DNA of 64,000 nt from Mytilus galloprovincialis (taxonomy: Eukaryota > Mollusca > Bivalvia > Mytilida > Mytilidae). This document shows, piece by piece, positions 5,101 through 36,531 of the stretch. Made by a program: the position numbers and the translations under genes. Position 1 is the first letter of the stretch. Every line of letters begins with the position of its first letter. The notes under the pieces are model-generated. The model searched no databases. It saw nothing but the letters and a program-made list of their open reading frames with translations, and was not told the DNA's origin. Location of the stretch: positions 34,135,102-34,199,101 of the forward strand of contig NC_134850.1 in NCBI RefSeq assembly GCF_965363235.1. Direction: 5' to 3'.

Positions 5101-5571
5101 TCGGGCGCTCCTTACTCCCTTAAACCGCATCTGTGCACTATATTCACTATATAGGTTTTGTTCCCCCTTCTATTACCTTTCTCAGGATATATAGGATATA
5201 CCTGTAATTAGGGAATTCAAGGGTTCAAAATTCGATCATAACGTCCTAGGGGAAGCATTTTTTCTTCAAATCAGCCGTTTTTGACATTCGGGCGCTCCTT
5301 ACTCCCTTAAACCGCATCTGTGCACTATATTCACTATATAGGTTTTGTTACCCATTCTATTAACTTTCTCAGGATATATACGATATACCTGTAATTAGGG
5401 GATTCAAGGGTTCAAAATTCGATCATAACGTCCTAGGGGAAGCATGTTTTCTTCAAATCAGCCGTTTTTGACATTCGGGCGCTCCTTACTCCCCTAAACC
5501 GCATCTGTGCACTATATTCACTGTATAGGTTTTGTTCCCCCTTCTATTACCTTTCTCAGGATATATAGGAT
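2160..5571 (+). repeat. 187-bp satellite array 1 (~18 units)
   Basis: About 18 head-to-tail copies of a ~187-bp unit. Each unit runs from 'tataggttttgttccccctt' through 'gtaattaggggattcaaggg', 'ttcgatcataacgtcctagg' and 'gacattcgggcgctccttac' to 'gcatctgtgcactatattca'. Copies differ by only a few substitutions, such as ctgtatagg/ctatatagg or catttttt/catgtttt, which indicates recent amplification or homogenisation. The last unit breaks off at '..atataggat', where the large TIR element begins. No ORF spans units. Tandem cores of this size are known in bivalve satellite-carrying elements (the 'pearl' type), but no such ends were identified here. Confidence 0.95.
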
Positions 5572-6020
5572 TCACTGGACACTTTTAATTTGCAAAACAC
5601 TCATTTGCAAATCCGCCGCCGCCTCAAACAAGAGCTACAATATCATGTATATAACCAAAATGTGCGGAATTACATGGGATTCAATAATTTCATTGGTTTT
5701 ATACTGTTACTTTCATATTTATTTTGCAATTTGAATTATAAAAACATGGGATTTTCAATATCCCATGGGACAGGGCAAAATCCCATGGGATTTTGGTTAA
5801 ATCCCATGGGATTTTTTTTGGTCCCATAGGATTATTGTAGTCCCATGGGATATTTGTTGTCCCATGGGACAAAAAAAATCCCATGGGACTATAATTATCC
5901 CATGGGATTTTTAATATCCCATGGGACAAAATAAAATCCTATGGGATTAAAATTATAAATATATATATATATAAATATAAAGTTATGTGTATGTTACAAT
6001 GAATGCTGTTTGGTAGTAAA
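5572..6020 (+). repeat. Left TIR with CCCATGGG palindrome cluster
   Basis: The outer ~180 bp is unique sequence (CACTGGACAC.., a GC-rich 'ccgccgccgcctc' patch, then AT-rich). From about 5745 to 5945 come roughly a dozen copies of the palindrome CCCATGGGA with 5-15-bp AT-rich spacers, with a few CCCATAGGA/CCTATGGGA variants. The inner end shares 'atgtgtatgttacaatg' and 'tttggtagtaaa' with the right TIR, after which similarity ceases. The translated repeat (SHGTT.., PWD..) reads open in several frames only because the motif has no stop codons. Confidence 0.85.
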
Positions 6021-6905
6021 ATGTTTTAAATGTATACGAGTTTTTTTTATATTTTTTATATATACATATATATAATTTTTTTTAAATTTTGTCACAAACA
6101 TGTTTTTTATTTGTTTATATGACAATAAAGATTATTCTTATTTTGGAATGTATAATAATAATATTTTACAGTCAAAGAATAAAGTCCTTTCACTGAAACA
6201 AAATGATGAAATTTCTAAATAAATGAAAAAATATTGTTTTGAAATCTTTGTCTTGTTTATTCTATTATGAAAAATAGAACTGAAAAAATATTTCATATTC
6301 TGACTGAATAGTTCACTCTTTTCATGAGATAAGATTTTCTTTGTTATAGGTTCATTGCAATACTTGTATAGGCAAACGATTTGAATTATAATATATAACT
6401 TTGTGGTGTACATAATAGTATGCTTATATTTGCAAATTTATAATATAAACACTTTTTGTTAAAGTTTTTGCTTTCTTTATTCACAACTTGCTATGTACAA
6501 TTATTCAGTCCACTATATAAGAGTGAAGTCAATAAATAATTTCATTCACTAGAATATTCCTGCAATTCTTAGACAAAACATTTTTTCAATCTGTTCTTCA
6601 AAGATCTTCCTCTGTACATCTTTATTGAATCGAGAGATTCAAATGAGAAGACAAAGCAAGTTTATTTGGACAACAACATTCTAATATCTTGTTCATTCGT
6701 TCCATCTTTCAATTGATAATTACATTGTTGTATTTATATGATCAAGTTCTTGTGCATCAATGATCGTGATGATATGACTCCTTTTTGTTTATAGTCATCA
6801 TGTTGAAATTTCCTCTTTCAAATAAATGTAGGAAAAAACATGTTCCATTTCAAATTAATAAAAAAGTCGCACTATGGAGAAAAATATCAGCTTTAAGTTT
6901 TCCGT
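6021..6905. other. AT-rich interval without recognised gene
   Basis: Very AT-rich sequence. At about 6165-6222 it contains a ~55-bp piece ('acagtcaaagaataaagtcc'..) that reappears at 7841-7897 between the copies of the next repeat. A minus-strand AATAAA lies near 6621-6626 and could serve the exon pair just to its right. Nothing else is seen. Confidence 0.5.
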
Positions 6906-8712
6906 TCAGTATTGATCTGTGAATGATGACCATGAAAATCCAGATTTCTGACCTACAAATACACAAACTCAAAAATTATCAGTGAAGAGATCAATAAAAT
7001 GGCTATTTTATCATGTTTATGATTAATATGATAAACTTTCATTTAAATATTCAAGTACTGAATTACAGAAATCGCTTAAATTTTATAATAGTTTAGTTAA
7101 AGTACAGCTTATTTAAAATTATAATAAAAAATATAGGCCACCGTTGAGTTAAATAAGATATTACATTTTTAATGCCAAAAAATGGCATTTTTGCACCAAA
7201 GGGAGATAATTTGGAGCTTTTTCAATGATATATGCATTTTAAAAGTCATCTGGGGCCAAACCGAATTGATTGTTTTGAATGATTTGGTGTACCATATAAT
7301 AAAGATATAAATAAATTGAGTTATGAAAAAAAAATATTAAAACATTTTTCTGAAATTGTTATACCCTAGAGCCTCCTTAAATGTCATTTGATCTCTATTG
7401 GAGAAATGTCTCATTGGAAATCAGACTGCTAAGTGTTTCTTATTTTTATATCAACCCAGCCATATTATACCTGTCTAATATCAGGAGCTTGTACATAGTT
7501 CAGTGGTTGATGTTGGTTCATACCCGTCATTTTTATTTTTCATAATTTTTTGTTTTTATAAATTAGTCTGGTATATTTGACAATTTCAGAAAAATGTTTT
7601 AATATTTTTTTTTCATAACTCAATTTATTTATATCTTTATTATATGGTACACCAAATCATTCAAAACAATCAATTCGGTTTGGCCCCAGATGACTTTTAA
7701 AATGCATATATCATTGAAAAAGCTCCAAATTATCTCCCTTTGGTGCAAAAATGCCATTTTTTGGCATTAAAAATGTAATATCTTATTTAACTCAACGGTG
7801 GCCTATATTTTTTATTATAATTTTAAATAAGCTGTACTTTACAGTCAAAGAATAAAGTCCTTTCACTGAAACAAAATGATGAAATTTCTAAATAAATAAG
7901 TACAGCTTATTTAAAATTATAATAAAAAATATAGGCCACCGTTGAGTTAAATAAGATATTACATTTTTAATGCCAAAAAATGGCATTTTTGCACCAAAGG
8001 GAGATAATTTGGAGCTTTTTCAATGATATATGCATTTTAAAAGTCATCTGGGGCCAAACCGAATTGATTGTTTTGAATGATTTGGTGTACCATATAATAA
8101 AGATATAAATAAATTGAGTTATGAAAAAAAAATATTAAAACATTTTTCTGAAATTGTTATACCCTAGAGCCTCCTTAAATGTCATTTGATCTCTATTGGA
8201 GAAATGTCTCATTGGAAATCAGACTGCTAAGTGTTTCTTATTTTTATATCAACCCAGCCATATTATACCTGTCTAATATCAGGAGCTTGTACATAGTTCA
8301 GTGGTTGATGTTGGTTCATACCCGTCATTTTTATTTTTCATAATTTTTTGTTTTTATAAATTAGTCTGGTATATTTGACGTTTGAATTGATGCTCTGTTT
8401 CAAATTTGGTTAGTGTTGACTTTTATAGATTACTATAACATGTATAGGGTATGGGTTTTCTCATTACTTACAGGTCATCAATGGCCTCTAATAAGTAATT
8501 ACAATGCTTACATCCACTAAATTGAACTCTGATGGATAGTTTTCTCTTTAATCATACCACATCTTATTTTAATAAATATTTAATTATTATTCAAGGACAA
8601 AAATTTTTATAACAGTGGACTTACCATTTAGGCTTTGTTGACCTCTGTAAATCTTATTTTGTTGATAATTTCTTCTGTTTATAGTTTCCCCTTGATCTTT
8701 CATGTTCTTGCC
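6906..8712 (-). CDS. Possible 3' exons of an unknown small gene
   Basis: Two exon-like segments lie on the minus strand. The first, 8625-8712, has acceptor 'ttttatgtgtag' and donor G|GTAAGTCC and reads GKNMKDQGETINRRNY.., a polar, basic peptide. The second, 6906-6952, has acceptor 'gtgtatttgtag'; after a split Gly it reads QKSGFSWSSFTDQY and ends in TGA. The splice phase (1) agrees at both sides, giving about 45 residues. The intron between them holds the inverted triplication at 7101-8379. No homology was recognised. The exons sit just inside the left TIR, so they may belong to the large element. Upstream exons were not found, although a promoter-like first exon on the same strand lies near 24440-24540. 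Confidence 0.3.
7101..8379. repeat. 481-bp segment as direct-inverted-direct copies
   Basis: Copy 1 (7101-7581) and copy 3 (7899-8379) are direct, equal-length and nearly identical. Both start 'agtacagcttatttaaaatt' and end 'ttagtctggtatatttgac'. Between them, about 7581-7842 is the reverse complement of the first ~259 bp of the unit. A ~55-bp piece copied from about 6168-6222 is spliced between the inverted copy and copy 3. The internal sequence includes a decayed SINE-like block (7380-7460). The pattern resembles a duplication-inverted triplication product of template switching rather than a transposon. Confidence 0.85.
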
Positions 8713-9223
8713 CTACACATAAAAGGGTAAACATCATTTAATGACAAAAATAACTACTACATGTATTACATAATTAGTAGGCAACTGAAAATTTTGTCTT
8801 ATTTGTATATAACATCAACTTACTCATCATTCTTGCTGTTCAATATCATGAATATTATCATTATTCTATGAATATGAGGTCACAGTCAAATTAACCTTGG
8901 CAGGCAGACATCTTTTTTTATTTGATACCTTGTAGTCATTCCATACAACAAGTAGACCTATGCTTAAAAAATCTAAGGCCAAAATTAAAAATATGTTTGT
9001 TTCCCCTCCCCCCACACGGGTCAAAAAATTATTTTCCACAAAAAAATCGAAATTATTTTTTTCCTGAAAATAATTTGTTTCCATTTTTGGAAAGTGCTTG
9101 AAAGCAGAAGGATTGATAATCTAAATAAATACACTCAAATTGAGCACAAACAACTGATAAGTGGCCTGGACTGGACAAGTCAAACCATTCATGTGACCAT
9201 GCTATGACAATCACATCCAGTTA
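8380..9223. other. Interval with diverged repeat, no clear gene apart from exon 8625-8712
   Basis: 8390-8580 resembles a very diverged copy of the SINE-like repeat ('gtatgggttttctcattact', 'aatcataccacatcttattt'). 8866-9084 gives an open minus-strand stretch that is low in complexity and matches nothing recognised. The rest is AT-rich. Confidence 0.4.
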
Positions 9224-10500
9224 AAAAAAAACTAGAGGCTCTCAAGAGCCTGTGTCGCTCACCTGTTAATGTGTTTACTGATGTCGGCCATCTTCGTTGG
9301 TAGGCGGGGTCATTAGACACTTTTTTTTTAAATAGATACCCTAGTATTATGATTGTGGCCAAGTTTGGTTAAATTTGGCCAAGTAGTTTTAGAAATGATT
9401 TTTATACAAGTTACAAAAATGACGAAAAGTTGTTCAATATTGACTATAAAGGGCAATAACTCCTTAAGGGGTCCTCTAACAATTTTGATCATGCTGACTT
9501 ATTTGTAGATCTTACTTTGCTGAACATTATTGCTGTCTACAGTTTATCTCTATCTATAATAGTATTCAAGATAATAACCAAAAACTGCAAAATTACCTTA
9601 AAATCACCAATTTTAGGGCAGCAACCCAACAACAGGTTGTCCAATTCAACTGAAAATTTGTGAAGGGATATATCTTATTCTGATGGACATTTAAATCTTG
9701 AAAGATTTGCCCTAAATGTCTTAGTTTCAAAGATATAAAGCAAAACCTGCATTTTACCACTATGTTCTAATTTTAGCCATGTCGGCCATTTTGTTTGGTA
9801 GGCTGGGTCAGCGGACACATTTTTTAAACTACAAACCACAATGATAATTGTGGCCAAGTTTGGTTAAATTTGGCAAAGTAGTTTCAGAGAAGAAGATTTT
9901 TAAAAAAGTTACAAAAAATGATGAAAAGTTGTTAAAAATTGACTATAAAGGGCAATAACTCCTTAAGGGGTCGACTGACAATTTTGGTCATGTTGACTTA
10001 TTTGTAGGTCATACTTTGCTGAACATTATTGCTTTTACAGTTTATCTCTATCTATAATAGTATTCAAGATAATAACCAAAAACTGCAAAATTTCCTTAAA
10101 ATAACCATTTCACAGGCAGCAACCCATCAACAGGTTGTCCGATTCGTCTGAAAATTTCAGGGCAGATAGATCTTGACCTGATCAACAATTTTACCCCATG
10201 TCAGATTTGCTCTAAATGCTTTGGTTTTTGAGTTATAAGCCAAAAACTGCATTTTACCCCTATGTTCTATTTTTAGCCATGGCGGCCATCTTGGTTGGTT
10301 TGACAGGTCACGCCACACATTTTTTAAACTAGATACCCCAAGGATGATTGTGGCCAAGTTTGGTAGAATTTGGCCAAGTAGTTTCAGAGGAGAAGATTTT
10401 TGTAAAAGTTTACGGACGACGGACGCAGGACGACAGACGACGAACGCCAAGTGATGAGAAAAGCTCACTTGACCTTTCAGGTCAGAAGAGCTAAAAAAAA
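9224..10500 (+). repeat. Bivalve interspersed repeat with three ~500-bp internal units
   Basis: It starts 'ctagaggctctcaagagcct' + 'gtgtcgctcacctg' and ends with a GAC-rich block ('gacggacgcaggacgac'), then 'aaaagctcacttgacctttc' + 'aggtcagaagagct'. Inside are three units about 500 bp apart, each with 'tcggccat(c/t)tt.gttggt' (9282, 9781, 10281), 'attgtggccaagtttggt' and 'gggcaataactccttaaggg'. Both borders are followed or preceded by an A-run plus C, which may be a target duplication. Non-coding; an open minus-strand stretch at 10157-10591 is a by-product of the repeat. Confidence 0.8.
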
Positions 10501-10611
10501 CCTGCCTTCCTGGTCTGTTTACAAAGGGTAGACCTGGGGGAGGGGAAACAGACATTCTTTTAAATGTGGCCTGATAAAATGACAAAACCAAGAAAACTTA
10601 TCATTGACCAA

Positions 10612-11391
10612 CAGTCAGGGGACTTACTGAAATAAGTGATTTTTAAATCACTTATTTGAGTAACAAATTCGAAGTTTTGTCACAAATCAGGATTTTGTAG
10701 TTTTTTTTTCAAAATTTTAAACACATAGGTGTTAAATAATATCTTTTAATTATTAAAATTGAAAAAAATAAACTTTTTGCTTCTTTTTAGTAGCAAGGTT
10801 AATGCCTTTGATGCTATCATTTAGCTGAAAATTCTATTTTAGTTGAAAAAATGCTATAATAATGGCTTTACATAATAAACTGATACTTTCTTAAAAGATT
10901 TTTCCCAGCAGTGGGAGTATTTTTCCTGTGAAGTTCAAGGTTTTATCTTACAGATTATGTAATAAAATTCTTCTGTTCGCGATAAAAATTTCACTGTTCG
11001 GGGGGTGTTGAAATTAGTGGGGGTTATTAAAATAATGATACTTAAAAAAGTGATTTTTGGGAAGGAAATTGAGGTACAGTACTTAAACAAGTGATTTTTA
11101 TGTCATTATCCTAGATTCAGTACAAGGTCATCACCTGAAATGACCTGGTCATCCTAGACAACACAGATGTTGGTTCTGATAAGTTTAGTAACATAATTAG
11201 TCCCTGGATCATTAGTATTCTATATTTAAAACTACAATAAAATTAAATCACTTAGTCTAGTGATAAAAAATTGTACTACTCAAATAGGTGATTATTAAAG
11301 AAAGATAACTCTTACTTTCAACCTTTATGAACAAAATGTTACTTGAATCAGTGATTTAGAAAATCACTCATTTAAGTAAGTCCCCTGACTG
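10612..11391. mobile_element. MITE with TIR CAGTCAGGGGACTTAC
   Basis: The left end CAGTCAGGGGACTTACTGAA is matched inverted by the right end ..AAGTAAGTCCCCTGACTG. Both ends continue into imperfect pairing (AAGTGATTTTTAAATCACTT). The flanking ACCAA on both sides is a 5-bp target duplication. The inside is AT-rich, with several further 'aagtgattttt' copies and no ORF. Superfamily not assigned. Confidence 0.8.
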
Positions 11392-11699
11392 ACCAAAGAA
11401 CAATAAAATGCGGTCATGGTTTATATATGAATCTGCCATTCAGACATGCACACCTTACAATTGTTTCATATCTACCAAATATAATCTACCTGTAACTTTA
11501 AACATATGATAAACTGACAAACAATGCAGTGTTTCATTGACCAATGAACCATGCATGAAAATGAGGTCAAGTTCATATAAAATATGACAGACAGCCAAGT
11601 GCATCTTACAATTATTTCATTCACTAAATAAAGGGGCCTTATTGCTTACAGTATCCAGAAAATAGACCAAACCACAAAAACTAAATATTTTCAAAGTTC

Positions 11700-11830
11700 C
11701 TTATACCCTGCCAATTTGTTATGGTTGTGCCTGTTCCAAGTCAGGATCCGATAATTCAGTGATTGTCGTTTGTTTATGTGTAACATATCTGTTTTTCAAT
11801 TTTTTTGTACATAAATTAAAGCACAATACA
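11700..11830 (+). repeat. SINE-like mussel repeat, 5' part only
   Basis: Contains 'gttccaagtcaggatccga' and 'gattgtcgtttgtttatgtg', the head of the SINE-like repeat. It lacks the 'ctcattggcaatcat' tail. Confidence 0.6.
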
Positions 11831-12879
11831 TTTGTACATGAAACACAAAGCTCATCACTGAGATAGTAGTCTCAGATAGAGGGAGGCGGGGTCAACCAAA
11901 CTCCCCTATTCAATCTGAATGCAGGACAGAAAGTCACAGTCAAAAAGTCACACACTGTCACAGGACAAAAAGTCACAATTTAGTTTTGAGATTATTTTTC
12001 TTTGAACAAGAAAACACTCTTTTTGTATTTTTCTTGAAGTTTTATACATGAACATGATGTAGCAACTTTTAAATTAAAATTTATTAAAAACAAATAAATT
12101 AGTGCATTAGGTTTGCGCACATTACCATTACATTTGCACACAAAAATCATTACGTTTGTGTGCAGCTTTTGATTACATTTGCACGCATTTTTTAACATGT
12201 AAATATAAAAAAAAAGGTATAGTATGCACCCAGCTAACAATGTTACGTCATAATTACGTCGTGACAATGTCATGTTTTCGTCGCATTGACGTCAGGTTAT
12301 TACGTTGTATTTACGTAAAAGTGTATGGTTTTCTTGACGTTGTCACAACGTCGTACATTAACGTTGTGGTGACGTAAAATTACGTTTCTACAACGTTATT
12401 CCTGACATTACAACAACGTTTATATCACGTTATGTCGATGTTGTCACAACGTCATGGTGACGTAAAATTACGTTTCTACAACGTTATTCCTGACATTTGT
12501 GGTGACGTAAAACGTAAAATTACGTTTCTACAACGTTAATATCACATTATGTCGACGTAATATACTTGCACTTTTATATTATGCTTTATAATTGGCCAAA
12601 AAATGATCGTATATACACACACATAGTATCAACTGTGTTTGGGACCATGAGGTGACCTCTAGATGATATATGTTGGTGTTATTCTCTGAAGGAATTCGTA
12701 TATTCTGCATCATCATCTTTTTTTTTTTGTAGCTTCAATCGAATTACTGTTTCAGTAATTGTGATATAACAGAAATGAATCCTAGGGCCATCTATAGCTG
12801 AGTGGCTGCCTATTCGTATGCAGTTCTTGATAGTGCTTGTAAAAATAATATGCATTTATCATATATGTTACTCTATAAG

Positions 12880-13055
12880 AGGGATGTTGCCCCGGTCTCT
12901 TTAACCCGTTTTTAATTGCTGCCTATACGATATGGGATTTGCCCATTGTTGAAGGCAGTACATTGACCTCTATAGTTATTTTCTGTGTCGTTTGGTCTCT
13001 TGTGGAGTCTCGTTGGCAATCATAGTACCACATCTTCTTTTTTTATATTCAATTT
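12880..13055 (+). repeat. SINE-like mussel repeat, 3' part
   Basis: Contains 'gctgcctatacgatatggga', 'ttgcccattgttgaaggcag' and 'ggcaatcatagtaccacatc'. A truncated copy of the family at 470-735. Confidence 0.65.
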
Positions 13056-13179
13056 ATTTCATCGTAATATACATTTCTCATTAAGCATGTTCACGTTCTG
13101 AATATAATATCTGGCTAGCTAAATACCCACCCATGAAAGTTATAAAAAAAAGTTTATGAAAAGTAAATAATGCCTGCAA

Positions 13180-13495
13180 ATGTTTGCACCTGTCCTAAGT
13201 CAGGAACTGTACAGTACTAGTGAGTTGTCGTTTGTTTATGTAATTTATACGCGCTTCTTGTTTCTCGTTTTTTTTAAAAATTTTATATAGATTAGACCGT
13301 TGTTTTTCTCGTTTGAATGGTTTTACACTAGTAATTTTGGGGCCCTTTATAGCTTGTTGTTCGATGTGAGCCAAGGCTCCGTGTTGAAGGCCGTACATTG
13401 ACCTATAATGATTTACTTTTTCGAGTTAAATTGTTATTTGGACGGAGAGTTGTCTCATTGGCACTCACACAACATCTTCCTATATCTGTATATCA
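13180..13495 (+). repeat. SINE-like mussel repeat, variant subfamily
   Basis: The head is 'gcacctgtcctaagtcagga'. The middle 'gtgagccaaggctccgtgtt' and the tail 'gtctcattggcactcacac' differ from the main type and match the copies at 45745 and (inverted) 58612. This shows at least two subfamilies. Confidence 0.7.
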
Positions 13496-13535
13496 AAAAG
13501 TAAAGAATTGATCGTTAACTTTGTTTATTTAATTT

Positions 13536-14631
13536 TTAAATGTTCTCCTGGGTCCCTGGTAGTGGTATTTCCGGAGCTGCTGCAATTATCCTTTTAACAG
13601 TTGGTTCCTGCAATGACAATACAAAAACTTATTTGTACAAAAAGTTAAATTGTAATTATTCTAGGTCAAACATTATTGCAAATAAATACTAGATCTATGT
13701 AGCTGTGTGTAAGACGTGGCTTTCCAAATCTCCTTGAAAAACACATAAACTACATAATCATATATTCAGTTAAATTTAATGTTAGTCTACCCTTAATTTA
13801 TTGTCCCAAAAGAGTATCTTCATCTTCACAATGCTAGTTACAAATGCATATCTATAAGGCCACCCTTAAAAAATTGTTTGTTTAGCATTGCCGACCCACA
13901 CTATCAGCAGGTGGGTAGGTAGGTAGGGATTTTTTTTTTTTTTTACATTTAAAAGATTTATACATGTAAATCATGAAGTCTCTAGATCAATGTTGTCTAA
14001 AGCATTGCAGCATTGTTGTGTGTACATGCTGGTGGTTTCTTTGAAAGGGGTCAACCGTCAATGTCACATTCTACATCATACACAGAAACAAAATCAAGAG
14101 CATACCAGGCACTAGTAAGACCCAAACTGGAATATAGTTGTAGTATCTGGGACCCCCATATGAAAGAACAACAGATACAATTAGAAAATTTACAGAGACT
14201 TGCTGCTCGTTAAGTACACAACAACTACGATTACCCGAGCAGTGTCACAAACATGCTAAATCAGTTGAAATGGCCACCACTAGCTGAGAGACGCTTAAAA
14301 ACCAGACTTATTTTATTTTATAAAGTAATACATTGTCTTGTTGCCATTCCATCGCATATTCTTGAACAAACAGACAGCAGAACAAGACAAAATTTTAGGC
14401 CTAATAACAATTTCGTGCTGAATTAAAAAAAAACAACAACATAGAATACAAACAATAATAATTTTGGGAAATATTCCAATATAGGTTGCACTATACGGGG
14501 AAATAAGGGTATTCTTACCTTATAGCGTGTTCCGCCTGGTTTTGGGGGTATATGTTTTACGGTTTCCCCAATCAATTCTTCAATATCTGATGTCCTTGCT
14601 GAGGGGTACATGTAGTTCTTCATGCAAGACT
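13536..14631 (-). CDS. Unknown gene, last two exons
   Basis: Exon 14519-14631 has acceptor 'ttttgtag' and strong donor AAG|GTAAGAAT. After two bases of a split codon it reads SCMKNYMYPSARTSDIEELI then GETVKHIPPKPGGTRYK. Exon 13536-13607 has acceptor 'gtcattgcag' and reads EPTVKRIIAAAPEIPLPGTQ followed by ENI and TAA. Lengths (113 and 72 nt) and phase (0) agree, so these look like the true 3' end of a gene. No domain was recognised. A promoter-like first exon with a donor lies upstream at 17633. The coding start and middle exons were not found. The location inside the 12227-18656 element suggests a transposon-borne gene or a captured host gene. Confidence 0.42.
14010..14426 (+). pseudogene. 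LINE reverse-transcriptase C-terminal remnant
   Basis: The reading frame gives SRAYQALVRPKLEYSCSIWD, then QLENLQRLAAR, an in-frame TAA at 14211-14213, and in the same frame NNYDYPSSVTNMLNQLKWPP and LAERRLKTRLILFYKVIHCL to a stop at 14424-14426. 'LVRPxLEY..SIWDP' and 'QR.AAR.....Y....SV..ML..L.WPxLxxRR' are hallmarks of the tail after the RT domain in CR1/L2/Jockey-type LINEs. The 5' part (endonuclease and RT fingers/palm) is missing, as usual for 5'-truncated copies, and the internal stop shows it is dead. Confidence 0.85.
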
Positions 14632-15404
14632 CTACAAAAATTGACATTGATAAAATTTGCATAGTGATATTAAATATAATTTAAAAATAAACCGTAGACT
14701 GTCAGGGAGCAACAATTTAACTTCAAGGAGGGTCATGGTTTTTGCTTGAGTCAGTGAAGTGCAAACAATTTTATTCAATTTTTCAACGATATCAATCAAA
14801 TTATTTTTTTTTTAAGTCTAACACTATAAGGTGTGGGTGGAATCTGGATTCAGAATATTTTTTGTCCTGTACTCGAACAGAATATTTTGTTTCATCAATT
14901 TGGAAATCTTAAGAAAAAACTCTATGACCCCCCCCCCCCCTTTTTATAGTTAAATGGTGGTTCCTTAATTTCAAAGGCAAATTCGGTATTTTCATTAAAT
15001 ATTTATGAGTTTGAAGCTATAATATTGATTTTGTTAGATATTACTATTAGATGGCATAATGATTTATCATTTATCAAATTAAATACACAGCTTTTTTACA
15101 TTTTTTATTAATTTTTACATTATGACATATTCCAATCTTCATTGTGACTGATATATCTTTTTAAACTCCACAAAGAACCGGTAAAAAAAACAAATTCACA
15201 GTATTGTCAGCGCCGGCAAAATAGCCATTACTTTTGAATTATGCTATAGCTATTTATAGCTCGCTTTTAATCGAGATATTATAATCATATCATAATTACT
15301 GTTTCACCGGCAAATAAGCCACTGCCAAAATAATAAAAAAAAAAATATAATTGAAAATTATGACCATAAATGTATGTTTTACATTTACAAATTTGCCATA
15401 TATA

Positions 15405-25500: not shown

Positions 25501-25690
25501 ATATCAGGGTGATTGAAATGAGGAAAAAAAAGGGGGGATCAGGAGTTCAGGGCCCCCTGTTTGGGAAAAGAATTGGTTGATTATATATGGAATCACTGAG
25601 TCATGGCAGGAGCAGGCCCCTCTTAGGCAGTCGGTGGGCCCCACTTATGAAAAATTCTGGATCCACCACTGTGGTCAGGGTGGTCTTCAG
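25500..25690. repeat. GGATCC-ended MITE, inverted relative of 20573 copy
   Basis: 'gttgattatatatggaatca', 'taggcagtcggtgggcccca' and 'attctggatccaccactg' are the reverse complement of the first part of the copy at 20573. Confidence 0.55.
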
Positions 25691-25799
25691 TTGTATTATC
25701 TTTTAAAAAAAAAATTACACCTGTATAGTGTATATTCTTTAGTGTAAATCAAGGGAAAATACTGTGAACTATCTGTGCATTGGGCTTATTAAAAGGTAT

Positions 25800-26440
25800 T
25801 TCGGGGGGAAAGAAAGAAGGGAGGGTGAGTCCATGGGAGGTAATCCCCACCCCTTTCAATTTGAGAATATGCTATTATCTTGTAAACGGTCCAGATCCCC
25901 ATCCCTAAACCATATATATTCTTGAATGGGACGATAAAACAAATCAAATGAAATTAAAAGGAGGTCTTTGGGGGTTTCACCACTCTGTTCAATTTGAGAA
26001 TGTGCTATTATCTTGTGAACGATCCAGATCCCCACCCCTAAACCATATATATTCTTGTCGGGGACAATAAAATTAATAATGAAATAAAATAAAAGTGAAG
26101 TCCCACCCCCTCTAGTTTGAAAACTTGTAAACGGTCAAGATCCCCACCCCTAAACCATATTTATATATTCTTGTATAGAACAATAAAACAAATAAAAGGA
26201 AATATAGGGAGAGTCCATGGGGTTCACCCCCACCCCCACATGTTTGAGAAACTTTTAAATGGTTGAGATCCCCTGTCATCCAGTGGTTAGGTGAAAAAAT
26301 TTCAGGATCCCTGATCCCCACCGTCAAACCATATATATTCTTGTATGAGACAATAAAACAAATCAAATGAATATAGGATTATCCCCTTTGTCTTGGGTTG
26401 GGAACCCCCCTTTTTAAAATGGCTGGATCCGCCCCGGCAT
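25800..26440. repeat. Degenerate ~125-bp tandem repeat
   Basis: Four imperfect units share 'gatccccacccctaaaccat' + 'atatattcttg', 'gacaataaaacaaatcaaat' and 'caatttgagaatgtgctatt'. The array is followed by a fragment of the GGATCC-ended MITE ('ggctggatccgccccggca'). Non-coding. Confidence 0.7.
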
Positions 26441-26654
26441 ACCATCTAGCTAGCTATAAAGGCTTTAAAAATATGAAATCAAACAAGGAAATTAACAGTG
26501 TAGGCAACTGTTTTGAATTTAAAAAAAAGTCTTTTACATATATAACAATGTTAAATTTTTTGTGCATTTATTTTTGCTTATCGTATTTTCAATAATGGAC
26601 AAAATTGCATGATTGAATATTGTAATTTAAGAAAAATCAGCATACATGATATAA

Positions 26655-26765
26655 AATGGGAAGTGGAAACTGGGAATTTGACAAAGAGACAACAACCCAA
26701 TCAAAGAGCAGACAACGGCCGAAGGTCACCTATGTGTCTTCAATGCACTGGTCTTCAGCTCATAA
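26655..26765. repeat. Second interspersed mussel repeat, fragment
   Basis: 'gggaatttgacaaagagaca' + 'acaacccaatcaaagagcag' and 'acggccgaaggtcacctatg' look like a repeat family distinct from the SINE-like one. Its full extent cannot be defined from one copy. Confidence 0.4.
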
Positions 26766-27614
26766 ATATGTATCAGAAATGAAAACGAGATACAGCTTTC
26801 AGTTGTATTAATAAAAACCTCACAATAAGTTCTGAATATCAGAATATACAGTATTGCAAGATTCTCTCAAAATGTACACATAGAGCTGAAAAACTGTCAG
26901 TGACTGTAAAATTAATCATGCTAACATTAAAGTCCATGGAGTCCATCTTAATATGCATACTCTCGTACAAAGGAATATAAGTATGCAATAGACATCAAGT
27001 TTTCAAAAATAAGAGTATCTATGCCATTAATTTACGACAAGATCTTAATCAAGTAATAATTTCGGTTTGTTTAAATATTTCGGAGGTTAGTATGACCTCC
27101 TCTTTGGTGATGATGTTTTCGTTTTAAAGTTGGGAAAATTGTTTGTACATGTACCAACAAAAATAAAAACACAAAGTCAATCTAGAATTATGTTTTTATC
27201 ATTTTTTTATGTTTAGGTTGTCAGCAAGATGAAAAGGACAAGTATGCAGTTCAAAATTCAAAATGTGGATAAGTTGAGGTTCTAGGTCTTACCTTTGCAG
27301 ATTTTCATATTTTGCATGAATGAAATCAAAGGTTATATGATGGACAGCAGAGAAAGAAAAAAACAACTTTTCAATTATCCTGCTCCTGGATAAATGTAAA
27401 ACATCTTGTTTTTCGGTAAGTTTTATGCTCTGTTTTGATAGTGTTAGTGCATTCATCTTTCCAGTCTTTCCTCTAAATTGTAAGTTTTTGGTGAGTGTTC
27501 ACCATGAATTTCAGTAAGTAACTTGTGGATTTAAATGTATATACTCAAAATTTAGTACTAATATTAATGGGATTTTAGCATGACATCCTGCCAAATGCTT
27601 GTTAATCATGTTTA

Positions 27615-27660
27615 TGTTCCAGAACAAACAAGTATTTGGACTGTACGCTTGCCCAATTTT
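27615..27660 (+). repeat. Left TIR of the 7-kb transposon
   Basis: Shares TGTTCCAGA.CA....AGTAT and TTGGAC.GTACG with the right end (inverted, 34620-34661) and with both ends of the 625-bp element. The TSD TTTA is just outside. Confidence 0.85.
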
Positions 27661-28102
27661 AAGAAGTTGGTCAAGTTTATTACAAACAAATGTACAGTAC
27701 AGATCAACATAACTGAAATCTTTAATAGATTAATACAAAAAGTTTAATTGCAGTTAAAATAAAAACACAGGTTTGGTCGAGCTGGTACCAGACAGTACAA
27801 ATATACTTAAATGGTCTGGGCCAAAATAAAAAGATTGTATGTTTGCCCAAACGCGACCGACCCGAAAAAAACCCGCCGACTCAAATTCTTTTTTTGCCGT
27901 TTTTTGGAAGAATTTTTTTTTTTCCGGATATTTTTTGTGTCCGCTCCGTCATCGTATGAAACTAAATGTAGTCATCTTTGCGTTTGAAAGTGACAGTGTT
28001 TAAGATTAAAAGAAAGCGTGTAGGAGATGCAGTAAATCGATATTCGATGTTCTCGGTTTTTATCTACTAATTCAACGAAAGTAAAGAAGTGAACATGTGA
28101 AG

Positions 28103-28966
28103 ATGGCAGACAGTTTTTTTACACTGTCATCGTCTGTTATTCTTAAAGTAAACAAAAAAATAAAGCCCATTGTGTCGAATAGACTTTACCGGTTCAACAG
28201 TAAAAAGACATGGAATGATGTATTTGACGAGGTTGCCGATCCGGATGAGATCGGCATGGGGAAAACGGACGTAGTCATGGTAAATGTATCAGACAAAAGT
28301 GGACTTCAAACATTTGAGCCCGATATGAGTGAGTCGATAGAGGTGGTCCAGGAATTTGACAACACGCTAAAGTTCGCGACTTTCACTGTGAACAGGTACA
28401 ATTTGGAATCGGACGAAGAGCCAGAGGAAAATAACAATGTCAACAAAGAAAAATCATACTTGGATGTGTTGATGTCCAATGCCAGGCATTTGGCATGCAC
28501 TAAAAACCCAATTCGAATAACTGAAGAAAATCCCCGCTTTACAGGTATGTGGAACTATATATTATATGTAATATCAAGTTAATTGTAAGGTAAACTCTGC
28601 AAGCTGACATGTTCAATGTTATAAATGTCAGTTTTCCCCTTCAGAGTTTTATAATCTGCCATCGGCCTGGGTGTAGGGTAGGGGGGATGAAGAACAAAAT
28701 GTGTTTACTAGGGGAAGTGCTGCCCAATTTTTTTTTATACCCTTACCATGCTTACTGTGATGTAAATTAAAAAAAAATGGAAAAGGGGGGGGGGGGGGGG
28801 GGTTAACCTATACGAAAGATTCCTAAACCCTCATTTCAACAATGGAAGGAGTGTAGATTGTCTTTCCACATTTTTGTCACAATTTTCTGACTCTGACACT
28901 TAGCCTAATAATATCAAATTCTATGTGTATTGAATTTAGGGAACAAGGGGTGGGGTATTCTGAATG

Positions 28967-29005
<39 letters not shown>

Positions 29006-32000
29006 ATCACATTAAAAGTAGCATGAAACTTAAGTTTTTTGTGAAACTCCATGTACTGATTATGATATAAATGCTCAGAGCATATGTCTAAAGGATTCAA
29101 TGAAACTTTGAGAAGATTTGTGGCATGTGTCTGACATATAACATGTATAATATTTTTTTTTAATACATTTTAGATGTTAAAGAATGCTTTAGATTCTGAT
29201 TTGATTAAATTTACTCTGACATTATTTATTTCAGCCAAAGATGCCTTATACAATAAAGTATGTGATATGTTTGAAGAATGTCAGGCTAAATTTCCTACAA
29301 CATATTTGAATGATGAGGTGAAGCAGTACACCATGATACTAGCTGATGCTTTGTGGTATCTGAATGGACACTTTGGTGGCTTGCAAGAAAAAGCATCACA
29401 CATACCAGATATAGTTGCCATTCCAGAGAGGTATGAAATATGTTTATTCATTGTCAGGAATAAAATTTGCCCTTATGCTACTTAATAAATTGGATATTTA
29501 TGCCAGACAAAAATTCTGACACTCCCGCCTCCAGGGTAATATATTATATTCTTTTATATAAAAAGAATTTAATACTGAGACTTACAGGAAATTTTATCAA
29601 ATCTATCCTAAATTTAATGAGACTTGTATGTCCAATTGAATTCTTTATGGAACAACCATATTTATACCAAAACACACATTAAAGTGGTGAGGTATGTCCA
29701 TCCCCAGGTGCCAGGTTTCCAGATGATATCCTTGGACTGGATTAACCTGGCATATTTAACCCCGCCACATTATTTGTGTATGTGCCTGTCCCAAGTCAGG
29801 AGCCTGTAATTCAGTGGTTGTCGTTTGTTTATCTGTTACATATTTGTTTCTCGTTCATTTTTTTTACATAAAATAAGGCCGTTAGTTTTCTCGTTTGAAT
29901 TGTTTTACATTGTCTTATCTGGGCCTTTTATAGCTGACTATATGCAGTATGGGCTTTGCTCATTGTTGAAGGCTGTACGGTGACCTATAATTGTTAATGT
30001 TTTTGTCATTTTGGTCTTTTGTAAATAGTTGTCTCATTGGGAATCATACCACATCTTCTTTTTTATATGAATTGTTTTGAAACTTTGTACAATTGTTAAG
30101 CATGATGAAATACAGGTAAAGTTTAAATGTCAGACTTTTTTCATTTTGTTTCATCCACTTTTTTATACCGAAATATGTTTTCAGATATAATTTATACAAA
30201 AGCAATTGGTTAATATTAGTACAATAAATTTTGAATGTGTTTTGTAATTCTATTTTGTAGGTTTTTGGACTTTGAAGGCTTCAATGATTATAAAAGGAAA
30301 AAACAGAAATGTCCAAATTTACAGTCTAATGTTCTAAATGGTCATGCCAAAACACTTTTACAACTGGCTTCGAAACAGTTTTGTGTAAATTGGAAGGATC
30401 TACACGATGATATTGAAAAACTAGCTACAACTTTCAGTTCATACAGTACATTCCTTGACAACTCTACAAAACAGCAAAAAGAGCGACAAAATAAATTCAC
30501 ACCATCTCGACAAATTGAAAAAGATATTTGGTTGGACAAACGTCAAGCTACTACAAATGACATCAAACTTGAATACCAAGGTCTTGACAATCGTATCAAT
30601 GAGACAGAACACTTTATACCCATCTTTTTTAACGAGGAACTTTTTTTGACAAAGCCTTTTGATAGTAGCATGGATAGATTCCGATTTTTCCAGAAACTTA
30701 GTCTTTCTAGTGAGGTGGCAATCTGTAGATATGATCCTGGTGGTTCAAATACTACAATTACATACGTTTGGAAAGTACCAGAAAATATTCCTGATGCTGA
30801 ACTGTTGACATCGTCCACCCGTATAGTTCAAGGGTTGAGGCAAAACCTGTTTGAATTTCATACTCGTCAGATGAGGAGAGACTTTCTCCATAAATTTTCA
30901 AATCTTGGTGGCTCTAGAATTCCGCCCCACATCATGAGAGCAATATATGCTGAACTAACACTTGATGCATCTGCAGACCAAAATCCTGAAATAGACCAGC
31001 GGGCTAGAATGGCAATATTAGGTGAGGATCCGGAACTTATTATAGACATGAGACATCTGAATAAGGGACGACCTGGAGACACTTTTAACCAGTTTTTTGA
31101 ACAGCTTGAGAAAGAAGTTCAGTCGATCATGGCTGCCGATGAACGGCGTCATAATGTAGAACATATTGCCCACTACATCTCAGTACCAGATCTGATTAAG
31201 CAAGTGAAAAGTAATTTACCAGATGATGCTCCAATCCCAAGTGAACCTACTGTGTTATTCTCATTTGTACCAAAGAACACTCACAATAATGTCTCAAAAC
31301 TTTACAAAAGTAAAGTTCCACTTCGTATGAGCATTCAGACAAGACAACTGAGAGCATCACATATGGATGATCACTTCTGTGCTGCTATGTTCAAATACAT
31401 GAGAGAATACTCAGTGCTGTACAGAGATGAAACAACATTTGTTTGTCTTGATGATAAGTCCAAATTAGACTTTGGGGAGCCGTCTTTAGCTTTATCGTCT
31501 GGAGTACGAGGAAAGAAAGCCATTGTCCCTTTGAATTCAATGTTATCTTGTCTTGACCATGACTGCCAAAGTAAAGGGTCATTAACACCCTCTGTATGCC
31601 TTGATGTTGATATTCCAGATGCAAACGATGAGTCTTTTTATAGGGGACAGGTAACCCTTGGCATGAAAGACAGCGTTTTCCAGTCAAGTAATCCATTCAG
31701 GCATGCCGTTGAACTTCAACATATGCTTAATCTAAAAGGGCAACAAAAGCCTGTGCTTATGATGTTTACAGATGGTGGCCCTGATCACCGTGTGACATAC
31801 CATGCTGTCAAATTGGCTCTTATCATCTTATTTAAAAGATTGGGGTTAGAGATGCTTGTTGCTGGAAGAACAGCTCCAGGGCATTCTTGGACAAACCCAG
31901 CAGAACGTATAATGTCACTTCTAAATCTGGCTTTCCAAAATGCAGCATTGTCGAGGAACGAGTGCTCAAGTGACATGGAACAGGTGCTAAGAAGTTGTGG

Positions 32001-34239
32001 TGGTATGGCTGATATCCGGAAGAAAGCTGAAACTGTAAAGGACTTGAAAACTGGTTGGATTGCATCGCTTCAGGAGATGATAAAAATGTTAGAAGAACGT
32101 GTAAAACGAGTGGAGTTAAAAGGAAAATCATTCAGTTGTATACCACCTGCTACTGATGAAGAAGTCATAGAATTTGAAAGAGAGGTTAATCAGATTGATC
32201 CAATTATAGTTATGGGGCAATACCAACAGCAACACCTGAAAAGGGCAGAGAGATACAAACAGTTTATAGGTATTTTAGATGTATTTATGTCAGAGCTTAC
32301 ACATATGAATCATATCTTTCCAACGTATTTTGAATTATCAGAACACAATGTATTATAAGTACTAGCATCATTGAAGGTGACCGCAATTCTAAAGTTATAC
32401 AAAATCTAAAGTCCAGGGACATGTACAAAACTTGGAAAACAGAAACAAATTTTAGTACTGTTAACAGGTTGATTTGTTTTGTGTTTGTAGCATTAAATAA
32501 AATCCTACTTTACTAATGGCCCCCAATAAATGGATATAAAGAAGGGATTTGGTGAACAAGACCTAGACACAAAATCAAAACATTTTACATGTTGTATTAA
32601 GTTACAGCAAAGGCACAGTGCTTTTATTGCTTTTTTCATATCAATAACACTCATATGAATATTCATGAATGTTCTGACACAAAAAAAACTTTTTTTTTCC
32701 ATTTTTCATAAAATTTAATGTATATTGAAACCTTTTAATTTCAGAGAGACATTGCATTGAACGACAGTATTGTTTCCAGATCAAAAGGTGCAATGATGAA
32801 ATGTGCTGTGAAAAACCCACTAAAGAAAGACCTTGGGTGCCAGATCCAATGTACAGTGATGAAAATGGTACACATTATAAAAAGCTTGAGGATGTAATTG
32901 GAACTGAGACATCGGAGAAAGATCGTCCCTCTGCTCAGAAACAGACTGTAACAGCTGTAGCTGAAGAGCAACAGGTATAAATATTTGTGTATTATATATC
33001 TTTCAATGTATACATTTTTGTTTTTGTCTCTGTCTTCAGTTGGTATATTTTCCTGGACTTTTGAAGTTTGCATACTGTTAATAGAATATTGGTCTTGTTT
33101 TTACTTTCTATATCCATCATTTTTAATCATAAGACTTACAGAGACACATGAGAACACATACTGCTGATAAACCTAAGTCCTTATGAATAGGATCCATATG
33201 TGATAAAGGGTTAAGTCTGACAGAGTTATAACTTTAATACAGGTACACATGAGAACACACAGATGGCAAAACTGGTATGTAGTAAAATAAATATTGTATT
33301 TAAGCACTTTCAAAGATATATGACATCACAGTGATGAACCTCATAATATATTTTCTGTCTTTCATTTGCAGGGTTGTAAAAACTCTGTTCTGGTTGGACA
33401 GAATGTTAGAATGACAGTTGATTGTACAGACTGTACAAAACCAAGGTGTATCTATTCTAAATTAAAGCTGACACCTAGGGAGATGAGAGGCCTAAAGCTA
33501 TTGCTTAATTCACATGATTACAGCTGTGGGGCTGTGATTACAACTGACGGTATGTTGAACTGAAATACAAAATGCAGATTAACATTTTTTGAACATTGAA
33601 GGAAAAAACAACACATGTGCTTTATTAATTTTTATTAAAGATGGTGTTTTGTGGTGTCATGTATTTATCTCCCTCAGAAATGGAATGGAAGTCTAATATG
33701 TCTTCAGAAAGTCTTTTACAACTTTACATTTACATCAAGTATACACATATACAAGAATTAAATCAGCCTGTAGAAATACTAGTATCTGTCTGACAAATAT
33801 GCAGACATAAACAATGATATACATCAAATTAAAATGGTCCAACTGGAAAAGAAGAAAAAAAACTGCATTTTTATAATATTTTCTATACTTTCGTTGAAGT
33901 CTAGCATTGAAAAATGTTGAATGTTCCTTGAGAATGTTTTAGTTTTTAAAATTTATTGTATGTGTTACTTTTTAAATGTTTTTTTTTGTTATTAATACAG
34001 GTCATGTTCTTCAAGGAAAGGTCTTTGTGAAACTGCAGCTAAATTGCCAATCACCCATTGAATTTTCATACTACTCATCTGGTATTAACGGCAAACTTGA
34101 TCTCTGCTGCTATTGTAAGACTGAAGGTGTACAGCAGGATAAAGAGTTAAAAAAACAATTCAGAGTTGTCCTACCAGTGTGTCAAACTTGTCTTGATAAT
34201 CACAAACCCATACTGAAGAGAAATCCAATCAAGAAATGA
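28103..34239 (+). CDS. DDE-like transposase, six exons, 1097 aa
   Basis: Exons: 28103-28544, 29235-29430, 30261-32269, 32745-32974, 33372-33549, 34001-34239. All introns are GT..AG and every phase agrees, giving 1098 codons. The start is the ATG of MADSFFTLSS; an upstream ATG is followed at once by TGA. Residues ~1-210 are acidic with no known domain. A large exon follows with a conserved-looking segment RPGDTFNQFFEQLEKEV..ADERRHN. A probable RNase H-fold catalytic core comes next: D610/D611 in FVCLDDKSKLDFGEP, D717 in MMFTDGGPDHR, and E761 in GHSWTNPAERIMSLLN, with 43 residues between the last D and E. The C-terminal exons are Cys-rich (HCIERQYCF..RC..CC; CTDCTKPRC; CCYC..CQTC), suggesting zinc binding. 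It probably cuts and inserts its own TIR-bounded element. Catalytic residues are inferred, not aligned. Confidence 0.85.
28776..29005. repeat. G-run and (TA)n microsatellite in intron 1
   Basis: An uninterrupted G tract of about 19 sits near 28784-28802 and a (TA)n tract near 28972-29001, both in the first intron of the transposase gene. Simple repeats prone to length error. Confidence 0.85.
29765..30070 (+). repeat. SINE-like mussel repeat in transposase intron 2
   Basis: A nearly full copy: 'gtcccaagtcaggagcctgt', 'gttagttttctcgtttgaat', 'tgctcattgttgaaggctgt', 'gttgtctcattgggaatcat'. It lies in the intron in the same orientation as the gene and does not disturb its splice sites, so it inserted after the transposon formed. 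Confidence 0.85.
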
Positions 34240-34336
34240 ACTGTTTCTGACAGTATATGGACAAAATGTTGATTTTTTATTCTAGTCTATGACAGTGTTT
34301 ATATATATGTTCATGTGCATAAGTCTACACATTATA

Positions 34337-34342
34337 AATAAA
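34337..34342 (+). terminator. Poly(A) signal AATAAA of the transposase gene
   Basis: AATAAA about 100 nt after the TGA at 34237-34239 and inside the right TIR of the element. The usual distance for a metazoan polyadenylation signal. Confidence 0.6.
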
Positions 34343-34619
34343 GTTCAGTTTATTGTTGAATGATTTAATTCAGTATAATAGACTAATACATGTATATACA
34401 GGTCTTAAATTCATGGCTTTTGATTGTCTCTACAAAGGTATGATGGTGAAAAAGATATACTCAGTGTTTCAATATCTTCATGCAAATTCTGAAAAAAAAA
34501 AAAAAAGAATTTGCCTACCTACCTACCCACACCCAGTCATCATGGGTCGGGTTTGGACAAACTGAAATATTTTTAATTGTGGCCCTGACTGTACACATAT
34601 GGTGGGACTGTAAGTTCTG

Positions 34620-34661
34620 GACCGTAAAAGTAACATCCGAATACTGATATGGTCTGGAACA
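34620..34661 (-). repeat. Right TIR of the 7-kb transposon
   Basis: Ends ..ATATGGTCTGGAACA, inverted to the left TIR, followed by the duplicated TTTA. Confidence 0.85.
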
Positions 34662-35055
34662 TTTATACATGTCTTAAAATTAATATCAAACACATTGGTG
34701 TTTGATAGAACTATAATGTTTTGGGATATCAAAATCAAAAATATCCCATTTTTACTTTTAATAAAGAAGAAGATTATTGATGTATGTTTAAATGTATATT
34801 AAAATGAGACAGCAAGCCAACAACACAAAAAAATAAGGATAAAACATACATATTTTTTTTGTATCAATGTTATAATTTCCAATATGTTCAAGGTATTTTT
34901 TCATTGAAATAAAACACAAATTGAAATCTGTCTGAACTTCAAAAGCTTAAAGAAATATTGTTTCTGTTGTCTGCATTTTGTATAATATATTGCAAATTCT
35001 TGTGAATAATGGAATGTTATTATAGTTGTCTAAAGTTTTAACATTGATCTTTATA

Positions 35056-35260
35056 CTGTAAATTCATAAATTATTGCGTGCATTTATTATTGCGATTCTG
35101 TCATTTTAAACTTAAATGCGATTTTAAATTTTACGATTTTGAGAAAAATCCTGTTTAATCCATATAAAATATTTCATAATGCGAGTTTAAATTATTGCGT
35201 TTACAACTCCGTTGCATTTTTCGCAATAAAAAAAAACTCGCATTAATTCCGAATTTACAG
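35056..35260. mobile_element. TA-flanked MITE (CTGTAAATTC ends)
   Basis: The ends CTGTAAATTC..GAATTTACAG are inverted and each is flanked by TA, the Tc1/mariner signature. The inside repeats 'aattattgcg', 'aatgcgattttaaattttac' and 'cgcaataaaa'. A second copy is at 51791-51974. Confidence 0.82.
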
Positions 35261-35344
35261 TATATATATATATTATGTATATAACTTGGGAAAATACCCA
35301 AATGTTATAAAGAAGAATAAATTAATTGATTGTTATATGATATT

Positions 35345-35470
35345 AGAATAGGAAGATGTGGTATATTGCTAATTTGACAACCCTCCATCAGAGACCAAAG
35401 GATGTAGGCCGTTAGCAACTGATGACACTGGACAACCTTTAACAATCAGTAAAATCCATATCGCATAGCT
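35345..35470 (-). repeat. SINE-like mussel repeat, diverged 3' part
   Basis: 'aggaagatgtggtatattgc' and 'tttgacaaccctccatcaga' with a variant 'accaaaggatgtaggccgtt' are an inverted, diverged tail of the family. Confidence 0.5.
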
Positions 35471-35711
35471 ATTTTTATTGAAAATCATATTATTGCTACA
35501 TGTATGAAAACAATTTTGTATAATCCATTACTTTAGATTTTATTGGTTCTTTTTCAGAAGGATTGAAATTCACCACCTAGAATAAATGGAGAAAACATAG
35601 AAACAAGACCAGAATAAATTCAAAGACAAAAGTTGGATCAGTTATTATTTTCATCACTCAGTCAATGATTTGAAGTTCTTTTAAATTCAAAAAAATATTG
35701 AAACCACAATA

Positions 35712-35831
35712 ATGTCAAAGTTCTGTGCTGAATGTCCAAAAAGTGGACTATACCATCAAACAATGCTGGATGATAAGAAACTATTAATGTTTTGTGTTGA
35801 GGGATATTGTGAAAAAAATAGATTTACTTAA
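35712..35831 (+). CDS. Small Cys-rich ORF (39 aa), unknown
   Basis: It reads MSKFCAECPKSGLYHQTMLD, then DKKLLMFCVEGYCEKNRFT and TAA. CxxC followed by CxxxxC spaced ~20 residues later could form a small zinc-binding loop. An acceptor-like 'tttttcag' lies ~150 nt upstream, so it could be the end of a spliced gene. It sits between the 7-kb transposon and the right TIR of the 31-kb element. No homologue is recognised, and an ORF this short may be chance. Confidence 0.2.
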   Translation: MSKFCAECPKSGLYHQTMLDDKKLLMFCVEGYCEKNRFT

Positions 35832-36060
35832 ATAGCTACTAGTATGTTAAGCCTAACAATAGAGTTTTTATTGATTTCAAATGGCAAATAATTGTGTTTC
35901 AAGAAAGTATTCTATAATTCATGAATAAACATATATTGATACTTACATTATCTGCTTTGTTGTTTAAAAGTTTAGTTTTGAACAGTTAAAGAACAATATG
36001 CTAAATTAACATTTCCCAAGAAAAAAAGATATTCAATTAAAAAGATTCATCTTATAATAA

Positions 36061-36528
36061 TTTACTACCAAATAGAAAACATTGTAACATACACATTACT
36101 GTTTATTTATATCTATATATTTACAATTAGAATCCCATAGGATTTTAATTTGTCCCATGGGATATTAAAAATCCCATGGGATAATAAAAATCCCATGGGA
36201 TTTTTTTTGTCCCATGGGACAACAAATATCCCATGGGACTACAATAATCCCATGGGACAAAAAAAAATCCCATGGGATTTAACCAAAATCCCATGGGATA
36301 ATGGTAAATCCCATGGGATTTTGCCCTGTCCCATGGGATATTGAAAATCCCATGTTTTTATAATTCAAATTGCAAAATAAATATGAAAGTAACTGTAGAA
36401 AACCAATGAAATTATTGAATCCCATGTAATTCTGCACATTTTGGTTATATACATGATTTTGTAGCTCTTGTTTGAGGCGGCGGCGGATTTGCAAATGAGT
36501 GTTTTGCAAATTAAAAGTGTCCAGTGTT
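36061..36528 (-). repeat. Right TIR with CCCATGGG palindrome cluster
   Basis: The inverted copy of 5572-6020. The outer ~180 bp matches with a few substitutions, such as tgcgga/tgcaga. The CCCATGGGA cluster is one or two motifs longer than on the left ('tttaccattatcccatggga' is extra). It ends ..AAGTGTCCAGTG-TT, followed by GAT and satellite. Confidence 0.85.
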
Positions 36529-36531
36529 GAT

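Follow-up and report, generated by a model that had tools for sequence, protein, structure and literature searches.

A copy of a probably non-autonomous giant transposon family within a satellite array

The window analysed here, a 64,000-nucleotide stretch of contig C13 in a genome of 1.38 Gb that is probably eukaryotic, to judge by size and content, contains a block of 30,954 bp (positions 5573-36526, in window coordinates, which are used throughout) that is bounded by terminal inverted repeats (TIRs) and interrupts an array of a 187-bp satellite. The evidence supports a TIR element that was inserted once, within a single satellite unit. Relatives with the same ends and a short target duplication occur elsewhere in the genome; they have in common a core from which the blocks added in the window copy can be told apart, one of these blocks contains a foreign transposase frame, and some copies have a nested insertion in common. 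We think it probable that the window element belongs to a family of giant, non-autonomous cut-and-paste transposons with a core of about 16.7 kb, moved in trans, and that this copy landed in the satellite and has grown to 31 kb.

The insertion, its ends and its relatives

The 20-mer CACTGGACACTTTTAATTTG lies at both ends of the element, at 5573-5592 on the plus strand and at 36507-36526 on the minus strand. The left and right TIRs (457 and 475 bp; 5573-6029 against 36052-36526) are 90% identical. If the two altered bases at the tip are set aside, four differences lie in their outer 180 bp, and most of the others fall within arrays of short palindromes and further inward. These palindromes, TCCCATGGGA, number 18 in the window, all of them within the two TIRs, against 0.06 expected from shuffles. 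The satellite has the same orientation and phase on either flank, and when the flanks are joined and one GAT is dropped, the result is a 187-bp unit that agrees with the array consensus at 184 of 187 positions. A sequence-only reading of the window had argued for a single insertion from the inverted ends, the satellite in register and a GAT on each side. The ends and the register are borne out, and the GATs are seen, but the target duplication of the family is 4 bp, not 3.

Across the genome, the 20-mer has 188 exact matches (87 on the plus and 101 on the minus strand) and a reversed control pattern has none, so the inverted ends are more than chance; 204 matches were obtained with a 28-mer that characterises the left end. 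For each of the two patterns 100 matches were listed, and contigs C1-C5 are fully covered by both lists. Among the 100 20-mer matches listed, 32 of 33 neighbours less than 60 kb apart converge (median span 17.9 kb), where 188 random places would give about one neighbour. The merged lists give 132 distinct ends on C1-C5, 66 per strand, and 45 of the 51 neighbouring ends less than 40 kb apart are convergent, again with a median span of 17.9 kb. Most of these pairs (35 of 45) span 15-21 kb, two exceed 30 kb and one falls below 10 kb. Short elements are thus ruled out as the usual form, and the possibility raised in the earlier reading, that each TIR belongs to a short element of its own, does not describe this genome. 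A 7.3-kb pair on C6, among the matches listed, is known from the positions of its ends alone, and a miniature member of about 735 bp (L143, C3:92995600-92996400) has both ends, one of them altered, and four palindromes.

We fetched ten copies whole, in halves (E1-E10), an eleventh in part (E11) and one older short member whole. Over the left 1.5-kb ends, the window and the nine close copies (E1-E8 and E10) diverge by 0.4-2.9%, a figure drawn from left ends only, because insertions in E1 and E9 made the right-end table unusable. The older member, 6.7 kb long at C1:56.18 Mb, has both ends, 77-93% identity over the longer matches and a duplication, ATTT, read from its flanks.

AACACTGG stands at 21 of the 22 ends compared in the window and E1-E10, the exception being the left end of the window copy, where TT replaces the usual outer AA. 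E1-E10 have the terminus AACACTGGACAC on both sides, and the end pattern of the family is AACACTGG...CCAGTGTT. Among 32 pairs of ends (the window, E1-E11 and 20 more), 24 have a 4-bp target duplication and two more have 5 bp; the remaining six, the window among them, have neither. Shuffled pairings gave 4-bp duplications in 1.7 cases on average and in 7 at most, and the target sites are 84% A+T. A duplication of constant length together with fixed inverted termini, as found here, marks a TIR cut-and-paste transposon. Because near-same sequences lie at different places, most with a 4-bp duplication of their own, the comparisons imply a family that is apparently young, with recent transposition.

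One other placement of the terminus was considered and rejected. CACTGG as the true end, with a 3-bp GAT duplication, gives way to AACACTGG plus 4 bp, which fits 24 of the 32 pairs. EnSpm/CACTA elements start with CACTA or CACTG and have 2-3-bp duplications; here the ends in register with the duplications start AACACTGG, and the duplications are 4 bp.

Core and additions in the window copy

Coverage of the window element was counted against the nine close copies, excluding E9, which belongs to a diverged subfamily, and E11. Exactly four blocks (Table 1), together 14,288 of the 30,954 bp, occur in none of the nine, and every remaining position is present in at least six. Since these 14.3 kb are absent from all nine, they were most likely added later to a family core of about 16.7 kb, the length of which varies by copy (E10 lacks about 3.7 kb of it). 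The mobile unit of 31 kb that the sequence-only reading had proposed thus gives way to a 16.7-kb core common to the close copies; its suggestion that the block had been swollen by other elements stands, in the form of a local duplication and three nested insertions.

The local duplication is a perfect one, in which 7100-7581 equals 7898-8379 and 7098-7359 recurs inverted at 7580-7841. Insertion A has inverted ends of about 55 bp, CAGTCAGGGGACTTACT, and a 7-bp overlap, TGACCAA, at the empty site. Insertion B, with ends CACCCAG and CTGGG and a 2-bp overlap, TG, contains no open frame of at least 100 amino acids (aa). Insertion C has the ends GGCCAAAAT and GTGGCC and is, against the empty site, a single insertion with a 3-bp duplication, CTG (27816-27818 and 34585-34587). 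It is absent from all nine close copies, one of which, E2, has lost the left side of the site too, and in 19 of 20 further pairs the site is uninterrupted; for the twentieth, the fetched stretch does not reach it. In E9 about 90 bp separate the pieces on either side of the site; E9 and E11 were left out of this count. To the right of the same site (window 27818/34585; L073-L112), five of 19 further pairs are 99-100% identical to the window and most of the others 81-92%, with extra bases; these are at least two forms, so sub-lineages exist.

The 707-aa frame in insertion C is the sole long frame with relatives in the block. It has 90 relatives at an E value of 0.001 or better, the named ones mostly from bivalves and two from gastropods. 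The ISAzo13-type DDE domain, PF07592, is flagged in four of the 90; a Pfam rescan of seven relatives placed four above the cut-off, those chosen as already flagged, and the other three below it, and the window protein itself has no PF07592 match in Pfam. The presumed triad, D406/D407, D513 and E557, shows little or no variation across 16 aligned sequences. Further exons may lie upstream, for example at 28085-28582 and 29174-29485, which is a guess. The relevant part of a published survey describes Zator as ISAzo13-like, with 3-bp duplications (PMC10045372). We call insertion C Zator-like because of its 3-bp duplication and the PF07592 matches of some relatives of its transposase, which are the features the two have in common; they differ in that the window protein lacks such a match and that only four of its 90 relatives are flagged. 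The sequence-only reading had recognised no matching transposase. There is a transposase gene inside the block, but it lies in a nested Zator-like insertion, so that for the family core the statement holds.

In the genome, where 63 of 73 candidates were scored, the transposase has 59 matches, two of them full copies at 99-100% and the rest distant or partial. Three relatives with equal scores and internal stops lie within 115 kb on C6 (C6:30128450, C6:30233697 and C6:30239782) and are probably a local duplication. In viral contigs there was one weak match, of 40 residues.

Among the copies compared, the four blocks are private to the window copy, so the simplest order, in which the satellite insertion came first and the growth later, is most likely the one that was followed. 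Other copies have gained DNA as well. Both junctions of a nested insertion of about 273 bp are common to E1, E5 and E11, which lie at different loci, and its copies are 93-97% alike, so copies kept moving after being inserted into; in E7 the left junction is common, the right side differs and the copy failed the flank test, and E2, E3, E4, E6, E8 and the window lack the insertion. E11 owes its 33 kb to other DNA, including a frame that by eye resembles a Gypsy-type retroelement. In E9 (L026 4254-6775), frames resembling a nested reverse transcriptase carry, by eye, the motif YLDD.

Table 1. Features of the window element and its flanks, in window coordinates.
Feature	Position	Strand	Basis
187-bp satellite array, left of insertion	2158..5571	+	Tandem Repeats Finder (TRF), 18.3 copies, 97% matches
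Left target site, GAT plus extra T, outer AA altered	5569..5572		Flank comparison
Left TIR	5573..6029	+	90% to 36052-36526; outer 180 bp nearly identical
Core segment 1	5573..7581	+	Present in close copies
8 palindromes TCCCATGGGA, 19-21 bp apart, one gap of 39	5761..5926	+	Motif count against shuffles
Local duplication block, window-specific	7582..7897		Perfect inverted and direct duplication
Core segment 2, tandem repeat of about 500 bp at 9281-10410	7898..10611	+	Present in close copies
Nested insertion A, 778 bp	10612..11389		Absent from 9 of 9 close copies
Core segment 3	11390..12226	+	Present in close copies
Nested insertion B, 6.4 kb	12227..18654		Absent from 9 of 9 close copies
Core segment 4, the longest, rich in small repeats and without a recognised gene	18655..27818	+	Present in close copies
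Nested insertion C, 6.8 kb, Zator-like	27819..34584	+	Absent from close copies
707-aa open frame, DDE-type transposase of insertion C	30235..32358	+	Frame and relatives
Core segment 5	34585..36527	+	Present in close copies
Right TIR, ending CCAGTGTT	36052..36528	-	Alignment to left TIR
10 palindromes TCCCATGGGA, 19-21 bp apart	36153..36338	+	Motif count against shuffles
Right target site GATA	36529..36532		Flank comparison
187-bp satellite array, right of insertion	36529..37696	+	TRF, 6.2 copies, 98% matches

The window contains further repeats. To the right of the satellite, 38748-44986 consists of long tandem direct repeats with units of about 1.5 kb and 0.8 kb (94-99% identity), followed at 45039-45546 by several short arrays in which palindromic units of the type TAGAACAGTTC/GAACTGTTCTA are repeated in tandem. 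A dispersed repeat of about 300 bp occurs both in and out of the element, at 474-740, 13174-13487, 29759-30078, 45745-46053 and 58600-58738.

Source of the enzyme and competing explanations

A typical copy consists of a core of about 16.7 kb between TIRs of about 460-480 bp that start AACACTGGACAC, flanked by 4-bp AT-rich target duplications. As the copies appear to have no gene of their own, an enzyme coded elsewhere would recognise the ends and move them in trans. The palindrome arrays are likely docking sites for this enzyme or for a helper protein, and the distance between palindromes, close to two turns of the helix, points to an array of protein that may help to bring distant ends together. 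The window copy would have entered one satellite unit as an element of about 16.7 kb, and would then have reached 31 kb through a local duplication, both inverted and direct, and through three nested insertions, of which one is Zator-like and has its own open transposase frame.

The case for supply in trans is that no gene was recognised in the copies seen: the genome holds many near-identical copies without a recognised transposase, nine of which match the 16.7-kb core. The core contains 86 frames of at least 50 aa, and a Pfam scan of 83 of them (three exact duplicates from the rearranged block were excluded) found no recognised gene, the one match, at E 0.0037, being no better than chance would give in 83 scans. 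The longest frames of six core halves, with their flanks, measure 120-144 aa, and between 4 and 24 of 100 first-order Markov runs contain frames as long; this control replaced shuffles of base content only, under which the longest frame lay above all 20 in two of the six halves. Between E9 and the window, substitutions are distributed across the three frames; of the 72 indels in seven core pieces, 52 have lengths that are not divisible by three (an eighth E9-matching piece, inside insertion C, was excluded from this count). The older 6.7-kb member has no frame above 100 aa. PHROGs, the PDB searched by sequence, and Rfam gave nothing useful, and the 20-mer had no match in viral contigs.

Ends without a partner were also followed inward, 20 of the 36 being read from 600 to 1700 bp inside (1.1 kb each). 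Six of the 20 are mostly covered by core and the rest partly or not at all; eleven unpaired tips that were read keep parts of the TIR, with best matches of 42 to 483 bp at 77-98%. Seven of the ten frames of at least 90 aa at these ends were scanned with Pfam, with nothing above the cut-off and no transposase; five weak matches in two frames, four of them in a repetitive one, lay below it (E 0.003-0.08). Five ends (L116, L117, L118, L124 and L132) lead into DNA without a match to the window or E9, and may represent broken copies, or other families that have these ends.

Several observations weigh against the reading of a non-autonomous family moved in trans. A mobilising transposase with matching ends was not found in the 83 core frames, in the 6.7-kb member (by frame length) or at the 20 of 36 unpaired ends, several of which lead into DNA unlike the core. 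The other copies fetched at length number twelve, one of them in part. The window copy, like five others of the 32 pairs, has no perfect 4- or 5-bp duplication, with GATA on its right and GAT plus T on its left, where GATA plus AA would be expected. Three of the six core halves have an excess of frames of at least 50 aa (as many are seen in 0, 1 and 3 of 100 Markov runs), and the frame test against E9 is confined to about 6.1 kb of the window element. The last two points favour an autonomous 17-kb element, with its transposase in many short exons or of a family outside the libraries used, as does the existence of transposons with introns. We regard this as unlikely: a similar excess of frames occurs in two window stretches outside the element (0 and 6 of 100 runs), and neither the Pfam scan of the 83 core frames nor the substitutions and indels against E9 nor the older member, as described above, point to a coding sequence.

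The remaining explanations fare worse. A 31-kb composite moving as one unit by its internal transposase could call on the 707-aa DDE-type frame inside the block, but that protein was rejected as the element's own enzyme, the frame lying in nested insertion C, which has its own 3-bp duplication and is missing from 28 of the 29 other copies compared, one being unseen. Furthermore, 188 exact 20-mer ends stand against two full, near-identical transposase copies, and the second of these lies on C6 at 98.8 Mb, beyond any 20-mer end among the matches listed there, the last being at 72.4 Mb; the composite is largely refuted, and we give it very little credence. Size (15-20 kb) and long inverted repeats would also suit a Polinton/Maverick or another virus-like giant element, a reading that is refuted for the copies seen and that we hold to have next to no chance of being right, since the 83 core frames include no polymerase, integrase or capsid domain, the viral contigs do not contain the 20-mer, and the duplications are 4 bp and not the 6 bp given for Polinton/Maverick in the relevant part of its source (PMC10045372). 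Two copies on C3 about 117 kb apart (C3:13425749-13445177 and C3:13542482-13561910) have exactly the same span, 19,429 bp, and are likely a segmental duplication. Spread of the whole family by segmental duplication or ectopic recombination, or its origin as an assembly artefact, is nevertheless highly improbable, given that 24 of 32 loci have flanks that differ and a 4-bp duplication of their own, and that the satellite empty site is in phase.

Significance and relation to known systems

A young family without a recognised gene, in which 35 of 45 convergent pairs of ends on C1-C5 lie 15-21 kb apart, makes the length limit of transposition testable, as it offers dozens of natural substrates that differ in size and have near-identical ends, together with candidate arrays for subterminal binding. 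It also illustrates one route to the gain of long non-coding DNA, in which nested insertions are carried along when their host element moves again. Tentatively, and with more doubt than confidence, we put forward a broader view: that a geneless transposon lineage of about 17 kb has lasted through several subfamilies in an animal genome (older members being 77-93% alike), is still moving and snowballs foreign DNA as it goes, and that its TIRs and palindrome arrays form a synapsis device that lifts the length limit.

The ends AACACTGG matched no named family, and a literature search found no description of this one, which says little about print as a whole. Sola1 and Chapaev have 4-bp target duplications, like the family described here. 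So do AcademX (3-4 bp) and Ginger1 (4 bp), according to the relevant part of one survey (PMC10045372); in contrast to all four superfamilies, the core of the window family has no recognised transposase to compare. Among the molluscs covered by another survey, Academ, Sola and Zator appear to be restricted to bivalves, and in the part on bivalves the longest curated autonomous superfamilies average about 5.5 kb (PMC10294476).

DNA transposition is described, in the pertinent section of one source, as losing efficiency as the distance between the ends grows (PMC6431247). Long internal DNA moved by enzymes in trans would be a feature that the family has in common with the large retrotransposon derivatives and Pack-MULEs treated there; the former are long terminal repeat elements that rarely exceed 10 kb, and the latter carry gene fragments and use a MuDR transposase (PMC6431247). 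In the brown alga Ectocarpus the giant DNA transposons (KDZ, EnSpm and Sola-1) are, in the part of their description that concerns us, generally longer than 10 kb and in some cases longer than 30 kb, and several giant families there lack a transposase and are presumed to be moved in trans (PMC12477816). As far as that part goes, the transposase-less families of Ectocarpus carry other genes, whereas the window family has no recognised gene and its host, to judge by the relatives of the nested transposase, is probably an animal; in size, in nested unrelated insertions that are common to copies and in the occurrence of families without a transposase, the two systems are alike.

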